DNA from: Pseudomonas kitaguniensis
GTDB lineage: Bacteria > Pseudomonadota > Gammaproteobacteria > Pseudomonadales > Pseudomonadaceae
DNA length: 64,000 nt
Assembly (NCBI RefSeq): GCF_009296165.1
Contig: NZ_VUAZ01000052.1
Coordinates: 1-64,000 of the forward strand
Direction: 5' to 3'
Shown here: positions 45,934 through 64,000 of the stretch, in pieces
How positions within the stretch are numbered: the stretch's first letter is position 1
How the letters are laid out: each line of letters starts with the position of its first letter
Notes under the pieces: model-generated
The model's database searches: none
Told to the model about the DNA's origin: nothing
What the model saw: only the letters and a program-made list of their open reading frames with translations
Translations under genes and position numbers: made by a program

Positions 45934-46041
45934 TCGGGCGATGCCCGGCTGTTCCATACGGGGCCGATACGCTCGGTGTACGTGCGCGATCCGGACCTTA
46001 ACCTGATCGAGATTTGCGGGTACGTCGAGGTTGCCGGTTAG
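45934..46041 (+). pseudogene. C-terminal remnant of a VOC/glyoxalase-family gene
   Basis: Directly after the dat stop, and in the same frame, about 35 codons encode the segment GPIRSVYVRDPDLNLIEI and end in TAG at 46039-46041. This is the classic last strand of VOC (glyoxalase/bleomycin-resistance) proteins. No start or N-terminal part exists upstream, because that space is occupied by dat. The remnant marks an old recombination joint at the end of dat. It overlaps the convergent receptor gene by a few bases. Confidence 0.65.
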
Positions 46042-48119
46042 AAGTCCAGAGTGACTCCGGTATAAAGCGCGCGACCATCTCCCGGAGAGTGCAGCGACCC
46101 TCGGGCACCGTCCGGGTCGTACCACACGTATTCGTAATAGCGGTTGGTGAGGTTTTTCAGCTGCAGGTCGACGCTCACCGACGGCGTCACTTTGTAGGTT
46201 GCACCGAGGTTCATCAGTACGTAACCGCCATACGTGCCTTGGGTGTTTTCGCGCTCCAGGTAATAGTCGGTCTGGCCGTTCATCCACGCAGTCAACTGCA
46301 ACGCAGGTGTCGCCTCGTAGCTGATGCCGGCGTTGTAGAGGTGATGGGGGATGTGGTCGATTTGCTGACCTTTGCTGTCAGGTAACGTGGCACTTGGCTG
46401 GAGTATTTTCGAATACTGCCAAGAGTAGGCCAGCCACAGTTCAGTGCGGTCGTTGGGGTGCAGGTTCACCTGTAAATCGTAACCCCAGCGCCGGGTTTCG
46501 CCGACGTTATCCGACTCGCCGCTTGGGTCGTTCAGCCTGCGACTGACTTCCCCGGAGGCCTCTTGCTGCCAATAGGCGACACGCCCGTCCACCCAGTCAG
46601 CCGGTGTGAACTTGATGCCGGTTTCCCAGCCGTCGTTGATCGACGGTGCCAGGTCGGTATCCCTGGGCGGAATTTTGTACGCCGCCGCACCCGTGCCGAC
46701 TTGAAAGGTACGCCCCCAGTTCGCGTAGACGCTGGCGACGTCCCACGGCGAATAGACCACGCTGAGCTTCGGCTGCTTGATCAGCCCGTAGTGGTTGATG
46801 TCGTAATCGGTGCCGGTCATTTCATTGGTGAAGTTGCCCTGAATTTTATCGACGCGGTAGGCCGGTACGATCTTCAGGGACTCGAACGGTTTGATCTCGG
46901 CCTGGACATAAGCGCCGTAGGTGTCGAAGTCAAACTGCTGGTCGCGCGTGGTGGCCAGGCGCGCACGCTCTTTGCTGCGATAGCGCTCACTTTTGTTTTG
47001 CTGCTGTTGTACGTCTGCGCCACCTTCCAGCGCGAAATCGTAGAGCCAGCTGACTTCAGGTCGCCAGGTCAAAGAGGTGAGGGCGCCATACTGTGTCTCG
47101 TAGGCGTCGCGCTCTTGCTGCGAGCTTGTGCGCCAATACTGCGTCCAACGCCTGTCATCAAAGGTATTCACGTAGGTTTTCGCTGACCAAGCCAGCGTAT
47201 CAGCCAGGTCTGTGTCGACATGCAGGCTGACCTGATTCATGCGCCGCGTGCCTGTGTCGGTAGCGTTAAAACGGTTGGTCATTTGGGGATGACGACGCGC
47301 ATCCTCCTCAGTCAGATAACCCGGCTCCTGTGCCTCGGTTTCGTAGTGACGGGCGATCAGGCCGATGCGGTAGCTGTCATCGTCCGGCGTGTAGAACCAT
47401 TTGCCCGACATCGAAAACTTGTCTGCCTGAGCGTGATCCCGGTAACCAGCGGATTTCTGATAGGCGAAGAAGTAGTTCTGCGTCCAATTGCTGCTTTGAA
47501 TGCCCTTGGCGAGTTGGGCCTCCTGAGTATTGAAGCTGCCATACCGCAGGCGCGCCTTGGTGTAGTCGCCACCGGTGCGGGTCAGCATATTGACGTTGCC
47601 GGCGATGTTATTCAGGCCATAGCGCGCATCACTGGTGCCACGCACCACCTCGATGCTGTCCAGCTCCATAGGGAAAATCATGTCCATGTACGGCATGTTG
47701 CCGTCATTGCTGTTACTCGGAATGCCGTCAATCAGCAGCTTGACCGCGTTGACTTCGCCTTCGCCGTTGAAGCCTCGAAACGAGATTTTGCCGGAGGTGG
47801 TGCCTTGGTTGAATTCAGTCAGCATCACGCCCGGTGCGCGGCTGAACAGCTCCCAGCTGTAGTTGACCGGCATTTTATCGAGGATGTCGGCGCCCAGAAT
47901 ATCGACTGAGCTGAGTACATTGCTGGTGTTCAGCGGGCCGCTGGCGGTGCCCTGGACGCTGACCGCGCCCAAGGTCAGCGTTGAGTTTTCGAGGTTGCCG
48001 GCGTCGGCCAGTGCCACTGACAGCGGGCTTGCTGCAAGCATGCCTATCGAGAGCAAGGGCCAGATAGAACAGCAAATAAACAAAGGCTTTGCACGCGGCA
48101 AAGTGATTGAACTAGGCAT
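46038..48119 (-). CDS. TonB-dependent outer-membrane receptor, substrate unknown
   Basis: This is a protein of about 693 residues. I choose the ATG at 48119 (MPSSITL), preceded by AGGAAG, over the longer frame to 48152. It has a signal peptide ending near ALA, then a plug domain (TLGAVSVQG, APGVML, ISFRGFNGEGEVN, LIDGIPS, IEVVRGTSDARYGLNNIAGNVN) and a beta barrel ending in an aromatic residue (VTLDF). There is no signalling domain. It converges on dat and lies 120 bp downstream of a DUF2946 gene on the same strand. DUF2946 proteins often accompany receptors for metals such as copper, so this may not belong to the siderophore system. The barrel is intact, without frameshifts. Confidence 0.82.
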   Translation of the reverse strand: MPSSITLPRAKPLFICCSIWPLLSIGMLAASPLSVALADAGNLENSTLTLGAVSVQGTASGPLNTSNVLSSVDILGADILDKMPVNYSWELFSRAPGVMLTEFNQGTTSGKISFRGFNGEGEVNAVKLLIDGIPSNSNDGNMPYMDMIFPMELDSIEVVRGTSDARYGLNNIAGNVNMLTRTGGDYTKARLRYGSFNTQEAQLAKGIQSSNWTQNYFFAYQKSAGYRDHAQADKFSMSGKWFYTPDDDSYRIGLIARHYETEAQEPGYLTEEDARRHPQMTNRFNATDTGTRRMNQVSLHVDTDLADTLAWSAKTYVNTFDDRRWTQYWRTSSQQERDAYETQYGALTSLTWRPEVSWLYDFALEGGADVQQQQNKSERYRSKERARLATTRDQQFDFDTYGAYVQAEIKPFESLKIVPAYRVDKIQGNFTNEMTGTDYDINHYGLIKQPKLSVVYSPWDVASVYANWGRTFQVGTGAAAYKIPPRDTDLAPSINDGWETGIKFTPADWVDGRVAYWQQEASGEVSRRLNDPSGESDNVGETRRWGYDLQVNLHPNDRTELWLAYSWQYSKILQPSATLPDSKGQQIDHIPHHLYNAGISYEATPALQLTAWMNGQTDYYLERENTQGTYGGYVLMNLGATYKVTPSVSVDLQLKNLTNRYYEYVWYDPDGARGSLHSPGDGRALYTGVTLDF

Positions 48120-48239
48120 AACGCACACTTCCTGATAACCAAGCGTATTCATCGGCGTTTAAGTGGCCACGCGCAGGCCGCACAAACACCGTGCAATGAA
48201 AACAGCGCCGAACATGCGTCGGCTAACTGCGAGGGTTAA

Positions 48240-48632
48240 TCAGGCGAAAGGCGAGGCGCGCGGGCTTAGGCTCGGCCAACGAATTCGAGGATGTAGCGTG
48301 GGTAATTCCAAGTAGACGAGCGCGGCGTCAGGCGTGTATCGCGGCAGGAAATTGCGGTAGTAGTTAGAGGGCAGTGCTGCCAGGCCGGCATGCCCACAGC
48401 AGCAATCGCCGTGTTGCATAAGGGTCTTGGAGGGCGTCTGCTGTTGAAGCGGATCGCTAAGTTTGACGAAACCAGGCGGCAGTACTTTTGAAGGGCCTGC
48501 GGAGCAAAAACCGCCCCACAGCATCAACTGCACGTCTGGCGTTTGCATAGCGCGGCTTAACGGCATGGCCAACATGTTTAACAACACGGCCAGGCAGGCA
48601 ATCCACGGGCAGATGCGTTTCAACGAAGACAT
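48240..48632 (-). CDS. DUF2946-like small exported/membrane protein
   Basis: This protein of about 130 residues begins with a membrane or signal segment (IACLAVLLNMLAM). It carries a characteristic CCCGHAGLAAL motif (Cys-Cys-Cys-Gly-His) and an upstream LMLWGGFCS, the pattern I associate with DUF2946. Cys and His residues suggest metal handling in the periplasm. I place the start at 48632 (MSSLKRI); the same frame extends to an ATG at 48725, adding a Cys-rich leader that looks less natural. It is followed on the same strand by the receptor at 48119, so the two are probably an operon. Specific function is unknown. Confidence 0.6.
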   Translation of the reverse strand: MSSLKRICPWIACLAVLLNMLAMPLSRAMQTPDVQLMLWGGFCSAGPSKVLPPGFVKLSDPLQQQTPSKTLMQHGDCCCGHAGLAALPSNYYRNFLPRYTPDAALVYLELPTLHPRIRWPSLSPRASPFA

Positions 48633-49105
48633 GCAAGAGTCGCTGCAAAGGGGCTGGCATTTAGCCAGAGTTCGATAGCGGTGTAAAATTCTATGGAGTG
48701 CGCTATTTCGCCGCACACTGAACAATGCACATTGTTAGTTAGCTAACCATAGTAGGCCGTTTACAAATCGTGTGTCGATGTCCTCAATCTGTCATATCGA
48801 AACCTTAGAGTACGCGCAAATGTAAGGAAATATTTCAGGCGCATGAGTTCAATAGCGCGTCGCCAAGTGCTTGTCGGCGATGATGCCCGCTATAGAATCT
48901 AATGACCCCGTTTTGGCCAGGAGCGTTATTGCTGCATAACTTTCCGAGTCAACCTGTTTTGTCTTGAGAGCGCGCATCTGCGATGCACACTTCGAAACGC
49001 AGGTTGTCTGTCCAACATGGATATTGACTTGCCTATGAACGCGCAGTTTTCGAAGGTTGATTGGCTGATTGCAAGCGTTGGCATCCCGGCACGGGTGTTG
49101 GCAGC
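48633..49105. other. divergent intergenic region
   Basis: This stretch separates the DUF2946/receptor pair (minus) from the secreted-protein series (plus). A perfect 10-bp palindrome GTTAGCTAAC lies at 48738-48747 and may be an operator for the minus-strand genes. A single CTGTCAT occurs near 48786, but no second half of a PHO box follows at the expected spacing. No RNA gene or convincing ORF was found. Confidence 0.35.
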
Positions 49106-50266
49106 ATGATCGCGCATGGAACCATAATGACACTGGCGGCGAGCGTAATGCTCAGCGCAAGTTTCGCAATGGCTGCTTCTGCACCCGTCAAAGACCAGAC
49201 TGTTGTCGCCGTCATTAAATTTGTGAAGCGCGCCGAAGGGCCAGGCTTGCGCTTCGATCCAGCGAGTTGCACCCCCTGCAGGCGAGTGACAGACCCCGAC
49301 TGGAACGCCGACAACCCGCGCGAGACGATCATTGCGCTGACAGTACCGCGCTCACGGATGCTCGAACTGAGGTTCGACGGCGCAGTGGCTAATACCTCGC
49401 GAGTGATTCTGGAGACCGGTGACATTCCGTTCAGGCTCGATGACGGGCGTTTGTACGTGGTACTGCCGCCACTGGCTGCGGATGCGATAACGGCCGCCGA
49501 AGTGTCCACGCATATCGTTGAGCAAGGTATGGTCCTGCGCTTCGAGCATGCTGACCCTGCACGTCGTGCGGGTTTTTATAGTCAAGGTGAGTTTCCTTCT
49601 GTGCAGCGCGCGGCGGCCAACGTGCTTGAGTTCGCGCAGCGTGAGGCCGTGCGTGACCTGGGGCTTGGGCACACGGTAGAAAGCCGCGGGCTGGGCAAGA
49701 TCCAGATCATGGGGTTCGACACCAATGCCCCCCACGGCCATGAAGATGCGCCGCCCCACATGCACATGCACCTGCGTTGGCCAGCGAACACCGGCACGCA
49801 AATCGCCCACTACTACATCGGCACGGACGGTCTGCTGCTGCACAACATTGTCGGCGTAAAAGGGATTGATGCCCCGGAAAGGCGCTTTGAGCGCGGGGAT
49901 TCATTTACCACGGTCGGCCCTGATGGTCGCCCGGTCTACACCCATCGCATTACGCCACAGGGCGCGCTGCAGATCACTCGTCCTGATGGCGCGATGTGCC
50001 TGATAGAGCCTGCCGGGGCAGGGCGCGAGGGCTTCGCAGGTGGAGCGAGTGTGAGCTGTTCCACCGGCACTAAACGGTTGGTCAACGTGGATGACGATCT
50101 GCACAAAGGCCGACTGAAAGTCAGCATCGACAATATTGAGGAGATCTACTACTACGACCCGGACACCGGCGTTTTGCTGTCCCCCAGGCAACCACCTCCC
50201 GTACCCCCTTCGGTGTATGTGGAAGCGGTGTCAGGCCCAGGCCTGTCATCGTCAGTGGCTGACTAG
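49106..50266 (+). CDS. secreted protein of unknown family with a His-rich HGHEDAPPHMHMH motif
   Basis: The protein has about 386 residues. A signal peptide is evident (hydrophobic TLAASVMLSASFAMA followed by small residues), so it is exported. I do not recognise the family. Striking features are a CTPC motif early in the mature protein, a metal-site-like run HGHEDAPPHMHMHLRWP near residue 215, a following AHYYIGTDGLLLHN and a proline-rich tail. The His cluster would suit a metalloenzyme or metal carrier. Start candidates are ATG 49106, which gives a complete signal peptide, and ATG 49127. The next gene, 59 bp downstream, is a secreted phosphodiesterase, and both precede a TonB system; the two may act on the same extracellular substrate. 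No function is assigned. Confidence 0.6.
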   Translation: MIAHGTIMTLAASVMLSASFAMAASAPVKDQTVVAVIKFVKRAEGPGLRFDPASCTPCRRVTDPDWNADNPRETIIALTVPRSRMLELRFDGAVANTSRVILETGDIPFRLDDGRLYVVLPPLAADAITAAEVSTHIVEQGMVLRFEHADPARRAGFYSQGEFPSVQRAAANVLEFAQREAVRDLGLGHTVESRGLGKIQIMGFDTNAPHGHEDAPPHMHMHLRWPANTGTQIAHYYIGTDGLLLHNIVGVKGIDAPERRFERGDSFTTVGPDGRPVYTHRITPQGALQITRPDGAMCLIEPAGAGREGFAGGASVSCSTGTKRLVNVDDDLHKGRLKVSIDNIEEIYYYDPDTGVLLSPRQPPPVPPSVYVEAVSGPGLSSSVAD

Positions 50267-50325: not shown

Positions 50326-51522
50326 ATGTTTTGTATACCGAGAATAGTTCTACTGTGCACATCGATAGTTGTTCTGGCGGCGCCATGCATTGCGCGCGCA
50401 GAGTACAACACCGACAAGATCGGCGGGATACTCAAAGACGCCCACAACGACCTTACGATTGTCTGCGCCCACCGCGGATTGCACGGCACCGCGATAGGCA
50501 CCAACGCTCACCCGGACTGGCTGCGCGATGTGCCGGAAAACTCGATCGCCGCCATTGAGCAGGCTGCCAGCAGTGGAATCGAGTGTTCGGAAATCGATCT
50601 TCAACTGGACCGCAACGGTAACGTGATCGTGTTGCATGATTCCAACCTCGGCCGAACCACCAACGCCTACACCACCGCAAACTCGACCGAGTATGACCCT
50701 TACGGGCATGGCGGCTATAACCCGAACTTGTCGAACTATTTTGGAAACACCCTGAATCTAAACCTTCGGCATCCCTCCCTGAATGGCTACAGCAACCAGA
50801 AATTGCCCACGTTCGATGCCATTTTGGACACGATCAAGCGCGATAAAATCGCGATGATCCTGCTGCTTGATGTAAAGAACATCGAAGCCGCCAAAAAAGC
50901 CTGGCAGAGCGTGAAGACGCACACCAACTGGTGGGGCACGCCGGCCGAGCGCTGGGTGTACTTCAAAATGCCGGTCAACGTGATTGGCACGACCGCTGCC
51001 AATTTTGAAGCCAAGGGCATCATGAATGCCCAGAGCGAAGCCGGACGCTTCCGCCTGATTCCGGTGTTTGGTGCAGACTTTATTGACGCCAGTGGCGGGC
51101 CGGCAAATTCGCTTATGAACTGGCAAGGTTACTACAACAAGGGTTATGTCTACGCCACCGAAGTGCGACTCAAGGAATATGACAACACACTCAGGTTTCC
51201 GCTGAACAACATCATGAACAGCTACTACGCCATGCGAACCACGCGCGATGTGAAAACCATGGGTGCTTATCAGCCTGTCGCGGAGACCAAGTTCTATAGC
51301 TTCTTTGCCGCCGATGGCCATTGCTGCACGGAGCCCAAGTACTGGCTGTGGAAATCCCAGAAGGGCTTTGGCCAAGAGACGGGGGATAACCGCACAAGCC
51401 TCAACTGGATCATGAACACCGCAGGCAAAAGTTTCAGCTACATCATTACGGACGATCCTCTGACTGCCATGTCGGCACTAAAAAATGATAACCGTCGAAA
51501 CACGGGTCTTATTTCAAACTAG
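50326..51522 (+). CDS. secreted glycerophosphodiester phosphodiesterase family protein
   Basis: This 398-residue protein has a signal peptide ending at ARA. The GDPD core is clear: AHRGLHG, then PENSIAAIEQAA, then CSEIDLQLDRNGNVIVLHDSNLGRTT, which supplies the metal-binding Glu and Asp and the two catalytic His of the TIM barrel. It would cleave glycerophosphodiesters to glycerol-3-phosphate and an alcohol outside the cytoplasm. A Cys pair near the end (GHCCTEP) is unusual. A good GGGAG lies about 8 bases before the ATG. Position before tonB-exbBD and a receptor suggests a nutrient-scavenging role; phosphate-starvation control is possible but no clear PHO box was found. Confidence 0.82.
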   Translation: MFCIPRIVLLCTSIVVLAAPCIARAEYNTDKIGGILKDAHNDLTIVCAHRGLHGTAIGTNAHPDWLRDVPENSIAAIEQAASSGIECSEIDLQLDRNGNVIVLHDSNLGRTTNAYTTANSTEYDPYGHGGYNPNLSNYFGNTLNLNLRHPSLNGYSNQKLPTFDAILDTIKRDKIAMILLLDVKNIEAAKKAWQSVKTHTNWWGTPAERWVYFKMPVNVIGTTAANFEAKGIMNAQSEAGRFRLIPVFGADFIDASGGPANSLMNWQGYYNKGYVYATEVRLKEYDNTLRFPLNNIMNSYYAMRTTRDVKTMGAYQPVAETKFYSFFAADGHCCTEPKYWLWKSQKGFGQETGDNRTSLNWIMNTAGKSFSYIITDDPLTAMSALKNDNRRNTGLISN

Positions 51523-51750: not shown

Positions 51751-52559
51751 ATGTTCGCGTTACTTTCATCGCGTCATCCTGCGCAACTTTTTCGCGACTG
51801 CGATCTGTTGCGTGCTTCGCCGGCAGTTACGTTCGATACCCCCGCGACACCTTTACCGGCAGTCGCTGTGCCCCGCAGTGGCGTGGGGCCTATTGCTTGT
51901 GTATGCCTTGTTGCATTGGGTATGCATGCGGCGGGCTTTCTATGGTTTCGCAACAGCGCGCCCGCGCAGCCTTTACCGCCTATCACCCGGCCGATGCCGA
52001 TTGCAATGCAAATGGTTGCCAAGCCCAAGCCGCCGCCTCCAATGCCGGCGGTTGAACAACCGGCGCGCCGCCACCCGTTACACCGGCACCGCCCCCCAAA
52101 CCTGTGGCCACCGCGCCGAAGGCTGAGGCGCCACGCGCGCAGCCCGCCAAGCCACCGGCCAAACCACAACCTGCCCAGAAGCCGGCTGTCGAGAAGCAAC
52201 CGCCTGCTGCGGCGCCCCAATCGATGCCGACCCAGCGACCTGCGCCAGCTTCGCCCGTCAGCCGCGAACCGACTACCACGGCACCCATCGGCCGCGCCGG
52301 TTACTTGAACAACCCGCCACCGGTGTATCCGCCCGCAGCGGCCAAACGGCATCAGCAAGGCACGACAGTGCTGCGCGTGCATGTACTGGCCAACGGTCGC
52401 CCGGACCAGGTTGAGGTTGCTCAGTCCAGTGGTTTTTCGGCCCTGGACGATGCCGCCCGCGCGGCTGTTCGACAGTGGTCCTTCACTCCTGCCAAGCGCG
52501 GTGACAGCCCGGTCGATGGCTGGGTCAACGTTCCGCTTGCCTTCACTCTCGCTCCTTGA
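51751..52559 (+). CDS. tonB: TonB-family energy transducer, frameshifted near 52066
   Basis: One protein is split over two frames. The first (ATG 51751) has a membrane anchor (VCLVALGMHAAGFLWF) and the beginning of a Pro-rich linker (KPKPPPPMPAVEQPA). The second continues the linker (PAPPPKPVATAPKAE) and has the complete TonB C-terminal domain (PPVYPPAAAKRHQQG, VEVAQSSGFSALDDAA, WSFTPA). Adding one C at about 52066 joins them as VEQPAPPPVTPAPPPK. If repaired, the protein has about 270 residues and spans the periplasm to energise receptors together with ExbB and ExbD, which follow within 11 bp. As written it would be truncated before its receptor-contacting domain. Confidence 0.8.
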
Positions 52560-52570
52560 GGCGCCTTACC

Positions 52571-53257
52571 ATGACAATCGACTACTCAACGCTGATTCAG
52601 CAAAGCTCCATGGGCATTCTGCTGCTGTTCTCATTGGCGACCTGGGCCGTACTGCTGCTCAAGGCCTGGCAGCAGGGCAGGGTGAAAAGCCAGAACAAGC
52701 GCTATGCGCAGGCGTTCTGGGCCGCGCAGGATTTTGATACGGCGTTGCACAGCGGTCCGCAAAAAAGCCAGTTGGCGCGTCTTGCGCAAGTCACCACGCA
52801 AGCGCTGTCCGGCGGCCACGATGGCCACGAACCGGCTGACAGCTGGAGCCGCCAGGAACTGCTGGAGCGCAGCCTGCATCAGCAGATTTACGCTGAACGA
52901 CGCACCCTTGAAAGCGGCATGATCGTGCTCGCCTCCATCGGCAGCACCGCGCCTTTTATCGGCCTGTTCGGTACGGTGTTCGGCATCATCCATGCCCTGC
53001 AAGCCATCAGCACAGCCAAGTCAGCGAGCATTGCGGTGGTGGCAGGGCCGATCGGCGAAGCCTTGATCGCCACCGGCGTCGGCATTGCCGTGGCGGTGCC
53101 GGCAGTGCTCGCCTACAACTTTTTCAGCCGCCGATTGAAACTCATGGTGGCCGACCTGGATGTGTTTGCGGTCGACCTGCTGAACCGCGCCCAACGCCAT
53201 GCCTTCAGATTGAAAGGCGAGCGTGACGCTGGTCGCAGCCTGAGCGGGGTGGCTTGA
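52571..53257 (+). CDS. exbB: ExbB/MotA/TolQ-family proton channel protein
   Basis: This is a protein of about 228 residues with the ExbB layout: an N-terminal membrane helix (GILLLFSLATWAVLLLKAW), a cytoplasmic loop, and two later helices containing the family motif SIGSTAPFIGLFGTVFGI and EALIATGVGIAVAVPAVLAYN. It forms the inner-membrane motor with ExbD and drives TonB. The ATG at 52571 is 11 bp after the tonB stop, and exbD begins one base after its own stop. Confidence 0.92.
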   Translation: MTIDYSTLIQQSSMGILLLFSLATWAVLLLKAWQQGRVKSQNKRYAQAFWAAQDFDTALHSGPQKSQLARLAQVTTQALSGGHDGHEPADSWSRQELLERSLHQQIYAERRTLESGMIVLASIGSTAPFIGLFGTVFGIIHALQAISTAKSASIAVVAGPIGEALIATGVGIAVAVPAVLAYNFFSRRLKLMVADLDVFAVDLLNRAQRHAFRLKGERDAGRSLSGVA

Positions 53258-53258
53258 G

Positions 53259-53663
53259 ATGGCCTTCTCTTCAAGCCACGACGACGATGCAATCAGTGAC
53301 ATCAACATCACGCCTCTGGTCGACGTGATGCTGGTGCTGCTGGTGGTGTTTATCGTGACCGCACCGTTACTGACCAATGCGATACCGCTCGATTTGCCGC
53401 AGACAGTCGCCACGGCGCCGCTGGACGACGCCAAGCCGGTGGCTATCAGCATCGACGCCAAAGGCGGGTTGTTCGTCGACGACCAGCCTGTGCCCGAAGC
53501 GCAATTGCCGGACACCCTGCAGAACCTGCGTGCGCGTGACCCGGACGTGGCGCTGACCCTGCGTGCCGACACCGCGACCGACTACGGGCACGTTGCCAGG
53601 GTGCTGGCAGACGTGCAAAGCGCGGGCATAACCCGCTTGGCGGTAATCACCGAAAGTCCCTGA
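53259..53663 (+). CDS. exbD: ExbD/TolR-family biopolymer transport protein
   Basis: This 134-residue protein has a short cytoplasmic N-terminus, one membrane helix with the conserved acidic residue (INITPLVDVMLVLLVVFIVTAP) and a periplasmic domain with the usual DKxxx-like fold end (YGHVARVLADVQSAGI). It is the partner of ExbB in the TonB motor. It directly follows exbB and precedes a TonB-dependent receptor by 73 bp. Confidence 0.92.
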   Translation: MAFSSSHDDDAISDINITPLVDVMLVLLVVFIVTAPLLTNAIPLDLPQTVATAPLDDAKPVAISIDAKGGLFVDDQPVPEAQLPDTLQNLRARDPDVALTLRADTATDYGHVARVLADVQSAGITRLAVITESP

Positions 53664-53736: not shown

Positions 53737-56037
53737 ATGATCATGTTATCGACTGCGCGTGCGTCTGGTTTTCCCCTTAAACGACTGGTGTTGGTGATCG
53801 GGCTGCATGCCCTTAGCCCGGCGAGCTATGCACAGGACGCCGCGACACCGGCAGCGGCGGCGGAGGAGGCTGCCTCCGGCGCCGGCGATACCACGCTGGG
53901 CACTGTTTCGGTGATTGGCCAGGGGGAAACGCGCCAGGTACAGCGCGTCGATGAAAAGGACATCAAGGCTTACTCGGCGGGCACCAACCCGATGAAGGTG
54001 CTGCAGCGTCTTGCCGGGGTCAGCTTTCAATCGGGCGACCCGCTCGGGCGCGAAGAAAGCAGCCAGCGCATCAGCTTGCGTGGCTTCGACATGCATCACT
54101 TGGGCTACACACTGGACGGCGTCACACTGGGCAACATGAGTTTCGCCAACTTCAACGGCCTGAGCATCACCCGCGCAATCATCGCGGAAAATATCGCCAA
54201 GAGCGAAGTCGCGGCCGGGATCGGCGCCTTGGGCACTGCCTCCAACAGCAACCTGGGCGGTACGGTCGCGTTCACCAGCGCAAACCCCGACAAGGAGTTT
54301 GGCGCACGCCTTTCGCAAACCCTGGGCAGCTATGCCACCCAACGCACCTACATGCGCGTCGATACCGGCGAATACAATGGCCTGGCGGCTTATGTCTCGG
54401 GGGAAAAATACGACGCCGACGCCTGGAAAGGTCACGACAACCCGCAGGAATCGGACGCGCTCAACGCCAAGGTTACCTACGATTTTGGCGGCAATCACCT
54501 GAGCTTCTATCACAGTACTTCAACGCACAATGAAGCCAACCTGCCGGCGATGTCGACCAGCATGATCAGTCGCTTGGGCTACAACTGGAGTTACTACACG
54601 CCTGACTGGACGCGGGCCGTGAACGCCGCCAACGGTATTTTTACCGGCGGCGTCACACGGGCGTCAGATGCAACCTACAACGGCAGCAGCTTGCGTGATG
54701 ATGAACTTGACATCCTCAGCGGCAACTTTTCGCTCACCGATGATCTGCTGCTGGACGCCACGGTCTATCACCACCACGACTCAGGCCGCGGCAACTCTTA
54801 CTACCCGTTCGTCTACACCAGTGGCAGCACGACCGTGCCCACCAACTCGATTCGCAGCACGGTGTACGGCATCAACCGCACGGGTTTCCAGACCGCGCTG
54901 ACGTACTTTCTCGGTCAGCATGAAATACAGGGCGGCTTCTGGATCCAGTCGAACAAGAATGACGTCTCGCGCTACCTGTTCGACCCGACCGGCACCGCGC
55001 CGCAAAACCACATTGTGAGAACCGACGGGTTGCCGCTGGTCGCCACCGTTCTGTCCCAGGATTACAACGACCTGACGCGACAGTTCTATCTGCGCGACAG
55101 CTACACCTTGCTTGACGACCGTTTGAAGCTGGAGTTCGGCGCCAAGAACACGGTCACTACCTCTACGGTGGAAGGCAAGGGCGGCGGTTACGCCAGTGGT
55201 TCGCTGGAGGCGCGAGACCGGTTCCTGCCGCAACTGGGTGCTACCTATAAGCTTAATGATCAAGATGAGGTGTTTACCTCGTACTCGGAAAACGTCGCCG
55301 CATTCCCCAGCAGCGGTTACAGCCCATTCTTCACCACCCAAGCGGCCGTCGACGCGGCAGACGGGTTCAAGAACCTCAAACCGGAAACCTCCAAAACCAT
55401 TGAAGTGGGTGTGCGCCGCAGCAACCCGCTTTATTCCACTTCGGCCGCGGTCTACAACACCCGGTTCGATAACCGCCTGGTTGCGATTACCAACTGCACC
55501 GGTATTGTGATTTGCCAGAACAGCGTGGCCAACGTCGGCTCGGTGACCAGCCGAGGCCTGGAACTGACTTTCGCGCTGACCCCCAACGAAAACTGGAGCT
55601 GGTCCAACTCTGCCTCCTACAACCACAGCACATACGACGACGATTACCAAAGCGGTACCAGCCAAGTTCACGTCAAAGGCAAGACCGTGGTCGACACGCC
55701 CAAGCTGATGTATTCAAGCGCCCTGGACTGGCATTGGCAGCACTGGAATGCGGGGTTGCAGGGCAGCTACATGAGCAAGCGTTATTTCACCTACACCAAC
55801 GACGCAAGCGTTGCCGGCTATTGGCTGGCCAATACAACGCTGGGCTATGACTTCGGCAAGTTGGGCGCGGTCAAAGACACCACCGTGTCGCTGAACGTGG
55901 TTAACCTGTTCGACAAGCGCTACATCTCAACGATTAACACGGATGCCACTGCTGCAAGTGACCCCACCGGTGACTTGCAGATACTGCAGGTCGGCAACCC
56001 GCGCAGCGCGTTCGTCACCCTGGCGGTGCGCCTTTAG
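53737..56037 (+). CDS. TonB-dependent receptor served by the adjacent TonB-ExbB-ExbD
   Basis: This 766-residue receptor has a signal peptide ending in SYA, an Ala/Glu-rich spacer, a TonB-box-like TLGTVSVIG, a plug (RLAGVSFQSGDPLG, ISLRGFDMHHLGYTLDGV, SNLGGTVAF) and a barrel ending in VTLAVRL. No signalling domain is present. AGGAA precedes the ATG at suitable distance. The dedicated TonB system and the nearby secreted phosphodiesterase suggest import of something released outside the cell, not necessarily iron. The substrate cannot be read from sequence. Confidence 0.85.
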   Translation: MIMLSTARASGFPLKRLVLVIGLHALSPASYAQDAATPAAAAEEAASGAGDTTLGTVSVIGQGETRQVQRVDEKDIKAYSAGTNPMKVLQRLAGVSFQSGDPLGREESSQRISLRGFDMHHLGYTLDGVTLGNMSFANFNGLSITRAIIAENIAKSEVAAGIGALGTASNSNLGGTVAFTSANPDKEFGARLSQTLGSYATQRTYMRVDTGEYNGLAAYVSGEKYDADAWKGHDNPQESDALNAKVTYDFGGNHLSFYHSTSTHNEANLPAMSTSMISRLGYNWSYYTPDWTRAVNAANGIFTGGVTRASDATYNGSSLRDDELDILSGNFSLTDDLLLDATVYHHHDSGRGNSYYPFVYTSGSTTVPTNSIRSTVYGINRTGFQTALTYFLGQHEIQGGFWIQSNKNDVSRYLFDPTGTAPQNHIVRTDGLPLVATVLSQDYNDLTRQFYLRDSYTLLDDRLKLEFGAKNTVTTSTVEGKGGGYASGSLEARDRFLPQLGATYKLNDQDEVFTSYSENVAAFPSSGYSPFFTTQAAVDAADGFKNLKPETSKTIEVGVRRSNPLYSTSAAVYNTRFDNRLVAITNCTGIVICQNSVANVGSVTSRGLELTFALTPNENWSWSNSASYNHSTYDDDYQSGTSQVHVKGKTVVDTPKLMYSSALDWHWQHWNAGLQGSYMSKRYFTYTNDASVAGYWLANTTLGYDFGKLGAVKDTTVSLNVVNLFDKRYISTINTDATAASDPTGDLQILQVGNPRSAFVTLAVRL

Positions 56038-58376: not shown

Positions 58377-58988
58377 ATGAATATTCCGTTTTTTGTTTCT
58401 CTGGATGGACCCAAAGGCACCGGCAAAACCACGCTATTGGAGGCCGTAACGGCAATGCTGAGGGCGGACAACAAGAAAGTCATCCGACTTTGCGAGAGAA
58501 AAAGCGATCCCTACAGAAGGGAAACCATGGCCCTGGTTAATGAACTTGCCAGAAATCCGTCAAGAGATCTGGAATGGGCTGTGTGCGAGCGCTTTGCCGA
58601 CAGTCGCAGTTGGATATCCCGGAACGTACTGACTCAGCAGCCGTTGGACAGCATTATCCTGATTGATCGCTGGTATCCGTCTGATGCTGCGTTTCGACAC
58701 ACCGTTCCGTTTGCAGAGATTCTTCAGTTGAACCGGGAGCGCGACGTGCGAGTGCCGGATGTGCATGTCGGCGTTGTCACCGCGCCGGATATTTCGTGGG
58801 CAAGGGCAACTGCACGGTCGCGAGGATTGGGCGGTACAGTGATCCAGAAGTATGCAGAGCATGTTGCATGTACAGAGATATTCGAGCAGGCGGTCGCGGA
58901 TCATGGCTGGGTGATGTGCCGTAATGAAGGTGCGATCGAAGACGCAGTGAAGCAGGTGGTGGCTGAGATCCTAAAAGTAGCTGGGTGA
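58377..58988 (+). CDS. dTMP-kinase-like P-loop nucleotide kinase
   Basis: The protein has 203 residues. The P-loop reads SLDGPKGTGKTTLLEAV at the N-terminus; a DRWYPSDAAF segment corresponds to the DR(Y/F) base-binding region of thymidylate kinases, and a LID-like Arg-rich stretch (SWARATARSRGLGG) follows. It resembles dTMP kinase but is divergent, and it lacks the usual holB context of the housekeeping tmk, so it is more likely an accessory paralogue. The base composition around it is more AT-rich than the left part of the window, suggesting transfer. A weak hairpin follows the stop near 58985-59003. Confidence 0.65.
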   Translation: MNIPFFVSLDGPKGTGKTTLLEAVTAMLRADNKKVIRLCERKSDPYRRETMALVNELARNPSRDLEWAVCERFADSRSWISRNVLTQQPLDSIILIDRWYPSDAAFRHTVPFAEILQLNRERDVRVPDVHVGVVTAPDISWARATARSRGLGGTVIQKYAEHVACTEIFEQAVADHGWVMCRNEGAIEDAVKQVVAEILKVAG

Positions 58989-60326: not shown

Positions 60327-63320
60327 TTATTGAATGCGCTGTTTCCAGTTCCCTGCTTGCGCAGTGACACCATTTTCAGTCGGCACGAGCGTCCAGATCT
60401 TGGCCTCAATCCCGTCGTTTTGCAGCTTGCGCAGGAAGTAACGCGCCTGCAGAGCATCATGGGTAGCGATCACGACCTGGAAACCATGATCAACGATGTA
60501 GTCACGCAGCAAATCGAAAACCGCAGAGGCATGCACCAGATCGTGGTGCTGAGTCGGGTCATCCAACAACAGTGCTTTCCAAGGAGACCACTGATGACTA
60601 ATGGCCATCGAGAGCAGGAAGGTCAGTTGAAGATCTGTCAACTGTGCCTCACTCGCGATATCAGGTACCGGTACCGCTTTATTGCCAAGCGGTACAGAAA
60701 CACCGGCACGATCTTTGTTATACGAGCTGAAGAACTTCAAGCTTGCCTCGTGGAATCTGGACTCCCGCACGACCCGTTTCAGCAGCGCCTGCCAGCGGGG
60801 TACCACCTTGCCGACATGCTTCTGAACGTTCTCAATTTCTTTCTTGAGTGAGCCGTCCAGCAAATCCATCGCGTCCGAGATCAGGGTCAATCGCAAGAAG
60901 CTGGATCGCGCCGCATTGATGCTGTCATTGAGAAAAGCTTCGAAGGCCTCTTCTGAACGGTCAAGACGCTGAGCATCAATCAGCCGCTGGGCCAGTTGTG
61001 ATTCATTCAACTTGGCCCAAGCAGAAATTTCCACCCCAATGCCTTCTAGTGCTGAAACATAACCTTCTAGGAGGGTCAACGTAGCGCGCAGCGTCGCTTC
61101 ACGGGCTTGCGCAGCTTCTGCAAGTGGGTCGCCGGTCAACTCCAGTTCTTGCCAGCTTGCCCGGAATTGAAGAAGGAGCGTTTGAACCCTTCTGATTTCT
61201 TCCTCAGTCCCCTGGACAACGGTTGATGACTCAAGCAACAGATGCTGTTGGGTGTCTAGGGCGGATTGCACAGTCCCGACCTTACCGTTTAGATCGCTGA
61301 TATTCTGTTCCAGCTGAGCTTTTGCTGCAGTGAGTTGCTCGAGCGTACGAGCCAGCGGTTCCCCAGAGGTGAGCGCGGCCAGTGAGGCGACTGCTTGATC
61401 CAGCCGCGTGGCCGCTTCGCTCTGTTGAACTCGGGCCAAGTCAAGCATGTGCTGTGCCGAGTTGAATGCTCGCTCGGTTTGTTCAAAGGCTTCAGGGGTA
61501 GGGAAAGCGTCCAACGCCGCTCGCTGATCAGCCAAACGCTTTTTGGCAGGAACAATGCTATCGAGTTGCTGCCTGAGCGCCTCTCTTGCCAACGGGAGCG
61601 AGTCACTAGCCAAAATCGGATCTGTACGAAACTGCGTAACTTGCCTTCCCAGCTCCACGCGTCTGGACTCCAAAGCACCCAATTCCCCTCGACTGAGGTC
61701 TAGTGCTTGATGCACTTTCTCAACCGCGACCTCACTGGCCGTTACCGCTTCCACCGCAGCCCGCAATTGCTGCTCAGCTGAGGTCAAACTAGGATTGATC
61801 GCCTCAAGGGCTTGAGCCACACGGGACTGAAGTTTGGCTGCACCATGCGGCTCCAGGCAAAGCGGGCATTGATCTTGGTCAGCGGGAAGATGTTGCGCTA
61901 TGGATGCAACAGCCTGACGGATTGCGTCGGCGGAAGAACTGAGCATCTCATAATGTGATCGGGCAGTGGCCTCCGCAGCTTTACACGTCTCATACGAGGA
62001 CCGTTCGGCATCCCGATCGATGCCCTGTTTATCGATGATCACTTCGAGCGCTGTGATTTGCTGAACAACCTCGCTGATCCGCTGCTCAGTGGCCTGCCAG
62101 TCGGCAAGCATTAGTTGACCCGCGTCCAGGCGCCGCTCGGTCTGGCTAATGCCCTGAAGCTGGGCGTCAATCTGAGCATGCTGGTTCCGAACACGTTGGT
62201 TGTGCTCATGCTGCTCGCGAAGTACACGAGAATCTTTTTCGGCCTCACGTAGGGCGGCAATCGCTGATGTCAACGCATCATTACGGTGATCGATCTCCTG
62301 TTTCGCACTTGTTTCTCCGATCAGGCGCTCAAGTTGCTGCCCGATACTGGCGAGCTCTTGCTGTGCAGAGTGGATACTGGCCTGATGCTCGTGCAATGCG
62401 GCACTGCCTTGAGCCCTTTTAGTTGTGTGGTGGCCAAACGTTTCACTCGCTGCCGTGAGGTCTGCATTGAGCTTTTCAAGCTGCTCCCGCGCCGCAACGA
62501 AGCTTTCAACAAGATCATTTACCAAGGCGAGGTTTGAGATTTGCGTCCGAGCACGCTCGACCTTTCCTTGCAAAATTTCGAACAGTGCGGAGTGTGCAAT
62601 CGTCAACTCCTCCTGGCTCACAGGCCCGGTCAACAAGCCAGGCGGAATCTGACTCAAGCTTTTCGTCTGGTTTGCAGCGTCAGAGAGAATGTCCGCAATT
62701 CGATCGCGCGGACGCAATGCACCTACTGCACCAGCAGCAGCGATGCCACGCTCGTCAAGTAGACGATTCCACTCGTTCAAATCAGCCTCATGCCCAATCA
62801 GCACTTCTTCTGCGCGGGCTTTTTGCTCCGTGAGCGACCTTCGCACAGCTGCGAGGTTGGCGCGAGCTTTAGAACCGTCGCGACCAATCGGCAGCTTTGC
62901 CAGCTGGGATCCGGCTTCCTTTTCTTCCGCATTGACGATCCACCCGTTCTCCCTTTGATCCAAAAGGTGGGTTAGGCGCAGTAAAAATGGGATGTCACTT
63001 GAGGACACATTAGGAAAGACGCTGCTTAAGTCCCCGTCCTGGTTGACCTTGCCAGCTGAAGTCACACGTGATGTCGCGGTCAGCTCAGAAAAATTCAAAC
63101 TGACTGCCGCTTCGGTCTGATCATCACGAATGATGTGGGCAATGTCGTCACGGAGTCGTGCGACTTTCCCAGTCAGACCAAACTCGATCGCCTCAAATAC
63201 CGTTGTTTTCCCCGTCCCATTTGGTGCGAGCAAAATAGTCGCACCAGGACTCAGATCGATGGTGACGTTAGCCCCGAATTTACGCAGGTTCGACAGGGTG
63301 ATTGAATTCAACTTACTCAC
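60327..63320 (-). CDS. Rad50/SMC-like ABC ATPase with zinc-hook motif, likely part of a defence system
   Basis: The protein has 997 residues. The N-terminus has a Walker A (APNGTGKTTVFEAIEFGL). The C-terminal lobe has a Walker B (WKALLLDDPTQHHD) followed by a switch His (ATHDALQ) and a Q-rich signature region (TDLQLTFLLSM). Between them lie long coiled coils (about 170-480 and 530-800) with a central CPLCLEP at about 500, the CxxC zinc hook of Rad50-type dimers. A 197-residue protein is encoded immediately upstream with a 4-bp overlap, and a third gene overlaps that one. This three-gene arrangement resembles ABC-three-component and Lamassu (LmuB) anti-phage systems, where the ATPase senses or holds DNA and controls an effector. 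Fold is certain; system assignment is inference because the effector is outside the window. Confidence 0.75.
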   Translation of the reverse strand: MSKLNSITLSNLRKFGANVTIDLSPGATILLAPNGTGKTTVFEAIEFGLTGKVARLRDDIAHIIRDDQTEAAVSLNFSELTATSRVTSAGKVNQDGDLSSVFPNVSSSDIPFLLRLTHLLDQRENGWIVNAEEKEAGSQLAKLPIGRDGSKARANLAAVRRSLTEQKARAEEVLIGHEADLNEWNRLLDERGIAAAGAVGALRPRDRIADILSDAANQTKSLSQIPPGLLTGPVSQEELTIAHSALFEILQGKVERARTQISNLALVNDLVESFVAAREQLEKLNADLTAASETFGHHTTKRAQGSAALHEHQASIHSAQQELASIGQQLERLIGETSAKQEIDHRNDALTSAIAALREAEKDSRVLREQHEHNQRVRNQHAQIDAQLQGISQTERRLDAGQLMLADWQATEQRISEVVQQITALEVIIDKQGIDRDAERSSYETCKAAEATARSHYEMLSSSADAIRQAVASIAQHLPADQDQCPLCLEPHGAAKLQSRVAQALEAINPSLTSAEQQLRAAVEAVTASEVAVEKVHQALDLSRGELGALESRRVELGRQVTQFRTDPILASDSLPLAREALRQQLDSIVPAKKRLADQRAALDAFPTPEAFEQTERAFNSAQHMLDLARVQQSEAATRLDQAVASLAALTSGEPLARTLEQLTAAKAQLEQNISDLNGKVGTVQSALDTQQHLLLESSTVVQGTEEEIRRVQTLLLQFRASWQELELTGDPLAEAAQAREATLRATLTLLEGYVSALEGIGVEISAWAKLNESQLAQRLIDAQRLDRSEEAFEAFLNDSINAARSSFLRLTLISDAMDLLDGSLKKEIENVQKHVGKVVPRWQALLKRVVRESRFHEASLKFFSSYNKDRAGVSVPLGNKAVPVPDIASEAQLTDLQLTFLLSMAISHQWSPWKALLLDDPTQHHDLVHASAVFDLLRDYIVDHGFQVVIATHDALQARYFLRKLQNDGIEAKIWTLVPTENGVTAQAGNWKQRIQ

Positions 63321-63910
63321 AGCTGAACCTCACTTTCACTCAGCGAACCGATGAGTACACGCACGACATCCGCTCCGTTTTGGTTGGTCAGAAGCTGCGT
63401 TCTCCAGGCAGCGATGTGTGGAACTGACCAAGGGCGCTCATTGGACAGAGTATTCAACGCCGACACCAAAGGGTCGCTAAGCATCTCGACATCGCCAGCA
63501 GGATCCAAAGTCGCCAAGAATGTCCGGTTAAGAAAATCACCAGCCGCTTCAGATTCGCGCACAACAACCTTGCGGCAGAATCTGTCATCAGTCTCAATCC
63601 GAGCAGCATCATCCTTGGCGATACCGCTGATCATCAGAAACATATAGAGGTCTGCAGTCTCAGGTTCCGGCAGCACATCCCGGACATCGGCGGCCCATTG
63701 GTTGGCTGCCTGCAGGGCCGTTAGTGGAAGCTCGATGAGCAGAACCGTCCGCCAGCCCGCCCGTTCGATGTGGGAGCGCTTGAGCCGAAGAACATGCGAG
63801 TCGTACTCGACCTCAGGCAGCATAAGTTCCGTTACGTCCCGGGGACACAAGTCATACCGACCCTCTACACGCTGAATGATTGCGCTAGTCAATTCCTGCA
63901 GTGTCAGCAT
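63317..63910 (-). CDS. middle component of the Rad50-like ATPase operon
   Basis: This is a protein of about 197 residues from ATG 63910 (MLTLQELTSAI); the frame stays open farther upstream, but there it lies inside the preceding gene. It has no signal peptide. Segments such as RAGWRTVLLIELP, QWAADVRDVLPEPETADLYMFL and ERPWSVPHIAAWRTQLL give the look of the small middle components in ABC-three-component systems (LmuC-like). Its stop overlaps the ATPase start by 4 bp, so the two are co-translated. A bridging role between effector and ATPase is expected from the family, not shown by the sequence. Confidence 0.6.
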   Translation of the reverse strand: MLTLQELTSAIIQRVEGRYDLCPRDVTELMLPEVEYDSHVLRLKRSHIERAGWRTVLLIELPLTALQAANQWAADVRDVLPEPETADLYMFLMISGIAKDDAARIETDDRFCRKVVVRESEAAGDFLNRTFLATLDPAGDVEMLSDPLVSALNTLSNERPWSVPHIAAWRTQLLTNQNGADVVRVLIGSLSESEVQL

Positions 63911-64000
63911 GATTAGTGCCTTCCCCATAAGCTTCGATTGCTGCTTCGCGCGTGTCGCGCCAAGCATCCCAATGACGTTTAAATTGCCCTTGTAGCTGGG
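63885..64000 (-). CDS. 3' end of the upstream gene of the ATPase operon, partial at right edge
   Basis: The last 38 codons of a frame entering from the right edge end in TAG at 63885-63887. The tail is hydrophilic and helical (FKRHWDAWRDTREAAIEAYGEG) and overlaps the start of the middle component by 26 bp, the spacing expected within a tight operon. It is too short to identify. By analogy with ABC-three-component systems this position would hold the effector. Confidence 0.5.
   Translation of the reverse strand, partial: QLQGQFKRHWDAWRDTREAAIEAYGEGTNHADTAGID

Follow-up and report, generated by a model that had tools for sequence, protein, structure and literature searches.

Organic phosphodiesters form a large phosphorus and carbon pool for plant-associated and gut bacteria. 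Two kinds of described uptake system come closest to the locus analysed here. In loci of the SusC/SusD type, and in those with TonB-Xanth-Caul (TIGR01782) receptors, the receptor gene lies directly before that of a dedicated exported protein, in the company of a sugar-type regulator and an inner-membrane carrier. In glycerophosphodiester scavenging of the GDPD/Ugp type, a GDPD-family phosphodiesterase (PF03009) acts under Pho control. Here we describe a gene, termed gene X, from a 64,000-nucleotide stretch of Pseudomonas kitaguniensis DNA (assembly GCF_009296165.1, contig NZ_VUAZ01000052.1, positions 1 to 64,000 of the forward strand), referred to below as the window. The Sphingomonas loci that carry X share the gene order, the regulator and the carrier of the first kind of system. 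Unlike SusC/SusD-type loci, however, X has no SusD profile, also occurs without a signal in Firmicutes and tends to pair with phospho- or sulfo-esterases. With the second kind, X loci share an adjoining GDPD gene and, in Pseudomonas, a Pho-box-like site; unlike Ugp-type systems, the Proteobacterial loci link a TonB-dependent receptor as the importer, and X is an additional component for which we know of no counterpart in glpQ/ugpQ systems. The type of locus, TonB-linked nutrient uptake, is known; the family of X is uncatalogued and has an invariant site. We interpret X as an enzyme of the periplasm that represents an undescribed family, probably depends on a metal and helps in the uptake and breakdown of a small sugar- or polyol-containing phosphodiester, and give this reading a probability of about 0.5. 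An earlier, sequence-only reading had arrived at an unrecognised exported protein with a metal-binding motif; it is partly supported, and the genomic context, which it did not use, is the best clue to function.

A rare gene for a predicted exported protein

Gene X (49106..50266, forward strand, ATG start) encodes a 386-residue protein that is predicted to be exported and belongs to an undescribed family. Its N-terminus (approximately residues 1-26; 49106..49183, forward strand) is hydrophobic and signal-peptide-like as judged from hydropathy, with the cleavage site predicted by no tool, in agreement with the export that had been proposed for it. To place the protein, we aligned 15 full-length copies: three from Pseudomonas (the window, L008 and L009), ten from Sphingomonas (L006, L011 and L026-L033) and two from Firmicutes (L007 and L012). 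L006 and L011 are 98% identical and L008 and L009 are 97% identical; these were counted separately, so that 13 of the 15 sequences are clearly distinct. The alignment leaves out the weak matches L004 and L005 (E about 7e-4, internal stops), as well as L024 and L034 (E 3e-5, partial), at which no receptor of such a kind as accompanies X and no ROK regulator was found.

N-terminal hydropathy is 1.57-2.98 in all 13 Proteobacterial copies, the lowest value belonging to L033, whose start is uncertain; the Sphingomonas starts were chosen by script. The two Firmicute copies score 0.42 and 0.69, and by this measure both lack a signal-like N-terminus. Inspection by eye found no cysteine in the N-terminus of the window copy and the sequence AASC, a candidate lipoprotein signal, in those of L008 and L009.

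The CTPC that had been noted beside the histidine-rich segment lies at residues 55-58 (49268..49279, forward strand) and, together with C298 and C318, could form two disulfides. C55, C298 and C318 are each kept in 13 of the 15 copies and C58 in 14. CTPC is therefore not invariant and is probably a disulfide that varies separately from the His site. Neither Firmicute copy has C298 or C318, and this absence, together with that of the signal-like N-terminus, is compatible with disulfides that form outside the cytoplasm. The CTPC pair fits such a reading less cleanly: the corresponding region of L007 has no cysteine, and that of L012 has two (C-x5-C), which other alignments place under C55 and C58.

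Few genomes carry X. The window's own genome gave the only match both among 57 relatives drawn and in a class-wide search (1/274). Within the window's genus, 5 of 398 genomes match X at E ≤ 0.001: the window's own and two further genomes at 74% have full-length copies, and the remaining two have weak fragments. A scan of contigs with two short peptide patterns returned three loci: one in a Sphingomonas MAG, one in a Clostridia MAG and one in Pseudomonas syringae pv. cilantro, the last on a contig already represented by one of the two 74% genomes. X is also found on a Sphingomonas parapaucimobilis plasmid (62%), and a phage-labelled faecal scaffold carries a relative (36% over 40% of X). Of 121 genomes in the genus to which the Sphingomonas MAG belongs, all called Sphingomonas here after that MAG, 9 match and 8 of these have full-length copies (9 copies); in the MAG's family, only the MAG itself matched (1/199). 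Around the Clostridia MAG, likewise, only that genome was found (1/295, 1/197 and 1/329). The 46-62% identity of window X to the Sphingomonas copies, set against its near absence elsewhere in Pseudomonas, suggests that X may have spread by horizontal transfer.

We rejected the possibility that X is a phage protein. MT836780 (L007, labelled 'Bacteriophage sp.') is a faecal scaffold without annotation; it carries genes for a GDPD, a LacI-type protein and a metallophosphoesterase and looks like a fragment of a gut Firmicute chromosome. No relative of X was found in IMG/VR, either in two protein scans or in one pattern scan, and the parts of the literature returned by our searches contained no publication on the X locus.

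Comparison with described protein families

The protein had been said to fit no family, and the profile and Foldseek searches proposed as a check on this matched no characterised one: Pfam, NCBIfam, PHROGs, PDB sequences and Foldseek were all without a convincing match. Window X exceeds no cut-off in Pfam-A 2025 (best 13.7 bits against a cut-off of 27.6) and none in NCBIfam 20, and a Pfam scan of six members reached E=0.013 at best. Searches of PHROGs 4 and of PDB sequences gave no match below E 0.12 and E 0.02, respectively. PDB matches to the ClpC N-domain (E 0.02-0.04) were discarded, as they disappeared with a six-member profile of X, which itself matched no PDB sequence below E 0.6. Neither Pfam nor NCBIfam returned a SusD/RagB match at E ≤ 1 for window X, nor did Pfam for the six members. 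None of the sequence or fold matches points to a reaction.

An invariant site of His, Asp and Tyr residues

The segment HGHEDAPPHMHMHLRWP (residues 210-226; 49733-49783), which lies close to AHYYIGTDGLL (residues 234-244), had drawn attention because it packs five His plus acidic residues into 17 positions, a count that we confirm. Such a density is by itself modestly unusual, being reached in 176 of 20,000 shuffles of X. It is also reached in 10 of 167 called ORFs of 150 residues or more from the last 24 kb of the window and 13 fetched loci; nine of those ten are either X itself or the ORF opposite it. We rejected a chance cluster of His residues on the grounds of conservation across the aligned copies. 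The pattern H-x-D-x-PPH-x-H-x3-RWP-x8-H-x-Y, running from H212 to Y237 in the window copy (H212-x-D214-x-PPH218-x-H220-x3-RWP-x8-H235-x-Y237; 49739..49816, forward strand), is present in 15/15 copies, with H212, D214, P216, P217, H218, H220, R224, W225, P226, H235 and Y237 identical throughout, down to 25% identity to the window copy. Within the run of five, H212, H218 and H220 are invariant, and H210 and H222 vary (12/15 and 13/15), so the impression of five His is partly accidental; as read from the alignment, the true site is H212/D214/H218/H220/H235/Y237 and not the five-His run. The proposed resemblance to a metalloenzyme active site is thus plausible for three of the five His together with D214, H235 and Y237, which are invariant, with H-x-H and H-x-Y on neighbouring strands of both predicted models, and does not extend to H210 and H222. 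We consider it likely that the site holds a metal.

AlphaFold models of window X and of the distant Clostridia copy are of middling confidence (pLDDT 71 and 74). In both, H-x-H and H-x-Y lie on consecutive strands, which span residues 218-224 and 231-238 in one model and 203-209 and 216-223 in the other. The loop before the PPH strand, including H212 and D214, has pLDDT below 50 (residues 206-214 and 192-198). Pairing of the two strands as a hairpin would bring H218, H220, H235 and Y237 together on the same face. The predicted body is mostly beta, and its N-terminal half is sandwich-like. No Foldseek match reached E ≤ 0.001; matches in Foldseek and VIA to Rhs repeats, OspA, fatty-acid-binding proteins and a de novo design were set aside at E > 0.001 and Z ≤ 5.2.

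Cupin metal sites are similar to that of X in having PPH-x-H on a strand and a further His on the next strand. X differs from them in that the signature HxHx(3,4)E occurs in 0/15 copies, as does the longer G(X)5HXH(X)3,4E(X)6G, which we take to be the cupin motif and used as a test pattern. No cupin profile appeared in the Pfam scans of X, and the cupin fold is absent among the fold matches listed, which are weak and come from mid-confidence models. The 2-oxoglutarate/Fe(II) oxygenases have an HxD...H triad whose distal His usually lies 50 or more residues further on; in X, H212-x-D214 is invariant and the last invariant His, H235, follows D214 by only 21 residues. Zincins are marked by HEXXH and metallo-beta-lactamases by HxHxDH, and each motif was found in 0/15 copies.

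The Pseudomonas locus

In all three Pseudomonas loci, X is followed in order by genes for a GDPD, TonB, ExbB, ExbD and a TonB-dependent receptor, which in the window all lie on the forward strand. The GDPD-family phosphodiesterase (50326..51522, 398 residues, with a signal-like N-terminus) matches PF03009 at E=1.3e-11 (45.5 bits against a cut-off of 23.6). The catalytic pattern of this family is HR...ExD...H, and the window protein shows it as HRG, EID and LHD. Within the genus, this GDPD was found in 1 of 117 drawn genomes, its own (E ≤ 1e-20), and its only plasmid relative at E ≤ 1e-10 (28.5% identity) lies beside a C-P lyase phn cluster in Mesorhizobium. tonB (51751..52559; PF03544, E=1.1e-23 on the C-terminal ORF) occupies two reading frames in the assembly, as a tblastn search with the L008 gene shows (frame 1, then frame 3). 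The L008 tonB is a single ORF of 277 residues and L009 matches it over the full length; the split in the window reflects a draft error or decay. exbB (52556..53257; PF01618, E=7.8e-33) and exbD (53259..53663; PF02472, E=6.8e-30) follow. The outer-membrane receptor (53737..56037, 766 residues; PF00593, E=1.5e-43) is kept in L008 and L009 and is nearest to the siderophore receptors of TIGR01783, below their cut-off (128 against 223.5 bits). In L009 the receptor gene contains one in-frame stop, and X is open.

Other parts of the window are occupied as follows. Divergent from the X cassette, at 46038-48725 on the minus strand, are genes for another TonB-dependent receptor, which has no match in L008 or L009 and a 48% relative in L034, and for a DUF2946 protein. 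A thymidylate-kinase-like P-loop protein is encoded at 58377-58988. A two-gene unit at 60327-63967 (minus strand), encoding an SMC/AAA-type ATPase (997 residues) and an ABC-three component system Middle Component 1 protein (PF20289), is probably a defence system. Two giant adjacent ORFs at 9494-32641 (minus strand; 3364 and 4337 residues) probably encode non-ribosomal peptide synthetases, judged from their size.

The region upstream of X in the three Pseudomonas was examined for consensus sites of Pho, Fur and Zur. At 48778..48795 (forward strand), some 310 bp before X, the window has a Pho-box-like site, ATGTCCTCAATCTGTCAT, with two mismatches to CTGTCATNNNNCTGTCAT (12/14); L008 and L009 each have one at the corresponding alignment position. 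The score was reached by 1, 0 and 0 of 200 shuffles in the three genomes, two of the three sequences being near-identical, and both mismatches fall in the first half. Between the window and L008, the block with the site is better conserved than any other stretch upstream of X: values in 40-column steps are 72-85% and then 65-75% in the block, and 38-57% elsewhere. Across the genome, 23 sites with up to two mismatches were found, against 4 for the reversed pattern; one is 79 bp upstream of a pstS gene, and one, with a single mismatch, sits between PhnR-like and PhnS-like genes, both of which are below the NCBIfam cut-offs. When up to three mismatches are allowed, the 64-kb window has 2 sites where 3.1 are expected, so the pattern shows no enrichment there. 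On the best reading, the imported ester-bearing glycoside would serve partly as a phosphorus source in Pseudomonas.

A dense His site next to a TonB-ExbB-ExbD-receptor set whose receptor is nearest to a siderophore family, albeit below its cut-off, and a second TonB-dependent receptor nearby could also mean that X belongs to metal acquisition, as a periplasmic carrier of a metal or metallophore that takes its cargo from the receptor. The Fur and Zur patterns, however, did not rise above shuffles upstream of X in any of the three Pseudomonas, and we rejected metal-starvation control of the gene there; the L006 receptor belongs to TIGR01782, and the ROK, MFS_2/GPH-like carrier, GDPD, sulfatase and LacI partners of X are untypical of metal genes. 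We regard a role in metal acquisition as quite improbable.

Loci in Sphingomonas and Firmicutes

The linkage of X as seen in these neighbourhoods is to an outer-membrane receptor gene in Proteobacteria, and to LacI-type and ABC-type genes in Firmicutes. All ten Sphingomonas loci have the receptor followed by X, and in each the receptor gene's TGA overlaps a GTG at which X could start (GTGA); all ten also have a ROK regulator nearby. An MFS carrier is present in eight (seven by tblastn, L029 by Pfam). The L006 receptor passes TIGR01782 (551 against 310 bits). In L031 the receptor gene is in two frames and the GDPD gene is split, with X open, and in L029 a Tn3 transposase gene directly follows X. 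Pho control was rejected for Sphingomonas, where no site matches at 12 or more of 14 positions. An 11/14 match in L027-L030 overlaps the palindrome ATATCA-N7-TGATAT between the ROK and receptor genes; by eye, this palindrome is a conserved element in several of the aligned ROK-receptor intergenic stretches of L026-L032, and it is more likely an operator for ROK than a Pho site.

The tight coupling to the receptor gene could also suit a non-catalytic periplasmic protein that binds or escorts the receptor's ligand, in the role that SusD has towards SusC, with the His site binding the ligand, possibly via a metal. The stop/start overlap in ten of ten Sphingomonas loci and the mostly beta, partly sandwich-like body predicted by the models agree with such a role. 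Against it, X pairs with a different receptor in Pseudomonas, the L006 receptor having no match in the window at E 1e-6, and the two Firmicute copies have neither a signal-like N-terminus nor an outer membrane to serve. The number of invariant charged residues also looks catalytic, the invariant charged or polar positions including E73, R145, E147, R153, Y158, N247, D331 and E346 besides the site. An escort function is, in our judgement, doubtful. The existence of a copy of X without a signal peptide argues for an enzyme rather than a part of the receptor.

A GDPD gene lies within the stretch read in six of the ten Sphingomonas loci; in L033, as read by eye, the receptor gene and then a transposase-like ORF stand between X and the GDPD gene. 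No GDPD was found in the stretch read of L027, L029, L030 and L032, and no other esterase was identified there. Seven Sphingomonas genomes have 2-3 Pfam-detectable GDPDs each, three of these matches being X-linked, and some X-linked GDPDs are so divergent that Pfam barely detects them (L026, E=0.0026, below cut-off). A binomial estimate of the linkage, which takes 3 of every 3,500 genes to be GDPDs and X to have six neighbours, gives 4e-12 for 6/10 and 5e-8 for a stricter 4/8; GDPD was picked for this estimate once it had been seen in the first loci. In the Firmicutes, a metallophosphoesterase gene adjoins X in L007, with a GDPD with DUF4996 3.6 kb away, and a sulfatase-family gene directly precedes X in L012. 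Each of these two loci has a LacI/solute-binding-type fusion, and the L012 permease, nearest to MalF/GlcT/UgpA (below their cut-offs), adds a likeness to Ugp-type scavenging. In total, a GDPD, metallophosphoesterase or sulfatase gene is near X in 11/15 loci. The partner esterases differ by lineage, each Firmicute partner being represented by one locus only, and no glycoside hydrolase lay beside X among the neighbours scanned with Pfam.

His/Asp clusters are typical of metallophosphoesterases, and X remains in the four of ten Sphingomonas loci where GDPD was not found. Both points would fit a phosphodiesterase or phosphatase of new fold in X itself, which would make GDPD dispensable in some loci. 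Yet X matches no phosphoesterase profile, and the separate esterase in 11/15 loci would then be redundant, so we think it unlikely that X is the phosphoesterase. That X is an enzyme in a catabolic locus for an ester compound has, by contrast, slightly better than even odds in our view. The esterase partners (GDPD, metallophosphoesterase, sulfatase) change around a constant X, which hints weakly that X acts on the shared, non-ester part of the substrate.

Discussion

Under our reading of X as a probably metal-dependent enzyme, the receptor, in Pseudomonas with its own TonB-ExbBD, would bring the compound into the periplasm. X would bind a divalent metal via H218, H220 and H235, with H212/D214 as a further ligand or base, and R145, E147, R153, Y158, R224 and Y237 are candidate substrate residues. 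X would then act on the compound, with the sugar or polyol part as the likeliest point of attack; that it acts on the sugar part rather than on the phosphoester is nevertheless a tentative proposal, which we would not favour at present. GDPD would cut the phosphodiester, and the products would enter through the MFS carrier (in Sphingomonas) and as phosphate. In some hosts the imported compound is perhaps a sulfate ester. X would work in the periplasm where a TonB-dependent receptor imports the compound, and in the cytoplasm where an ABC transporter would do so.

For the receptors, X gives a handle on the substrate, an assignment of which for such receptors did not appear in the parts of the literature that our searches returned. 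It is possible, with odds somewhat short of even, that X founds a new metalloenzyme family, perhaps with a new fold, and that it performs a step not yet recognised in breaking down glycosides that are phosphodiester-linked (or sulfated). One core would then work in the periplasm of Proteobacteria that import through TonB and in the cytoplasm of gut Firmicutes that import through ABC transporters. Few genomes have X, and they span distant phyla; with its invariant metal-type site and its linkage to receptor and esterase genes, X is a concrete candidate for a missing step in the use of phosphodiesters.
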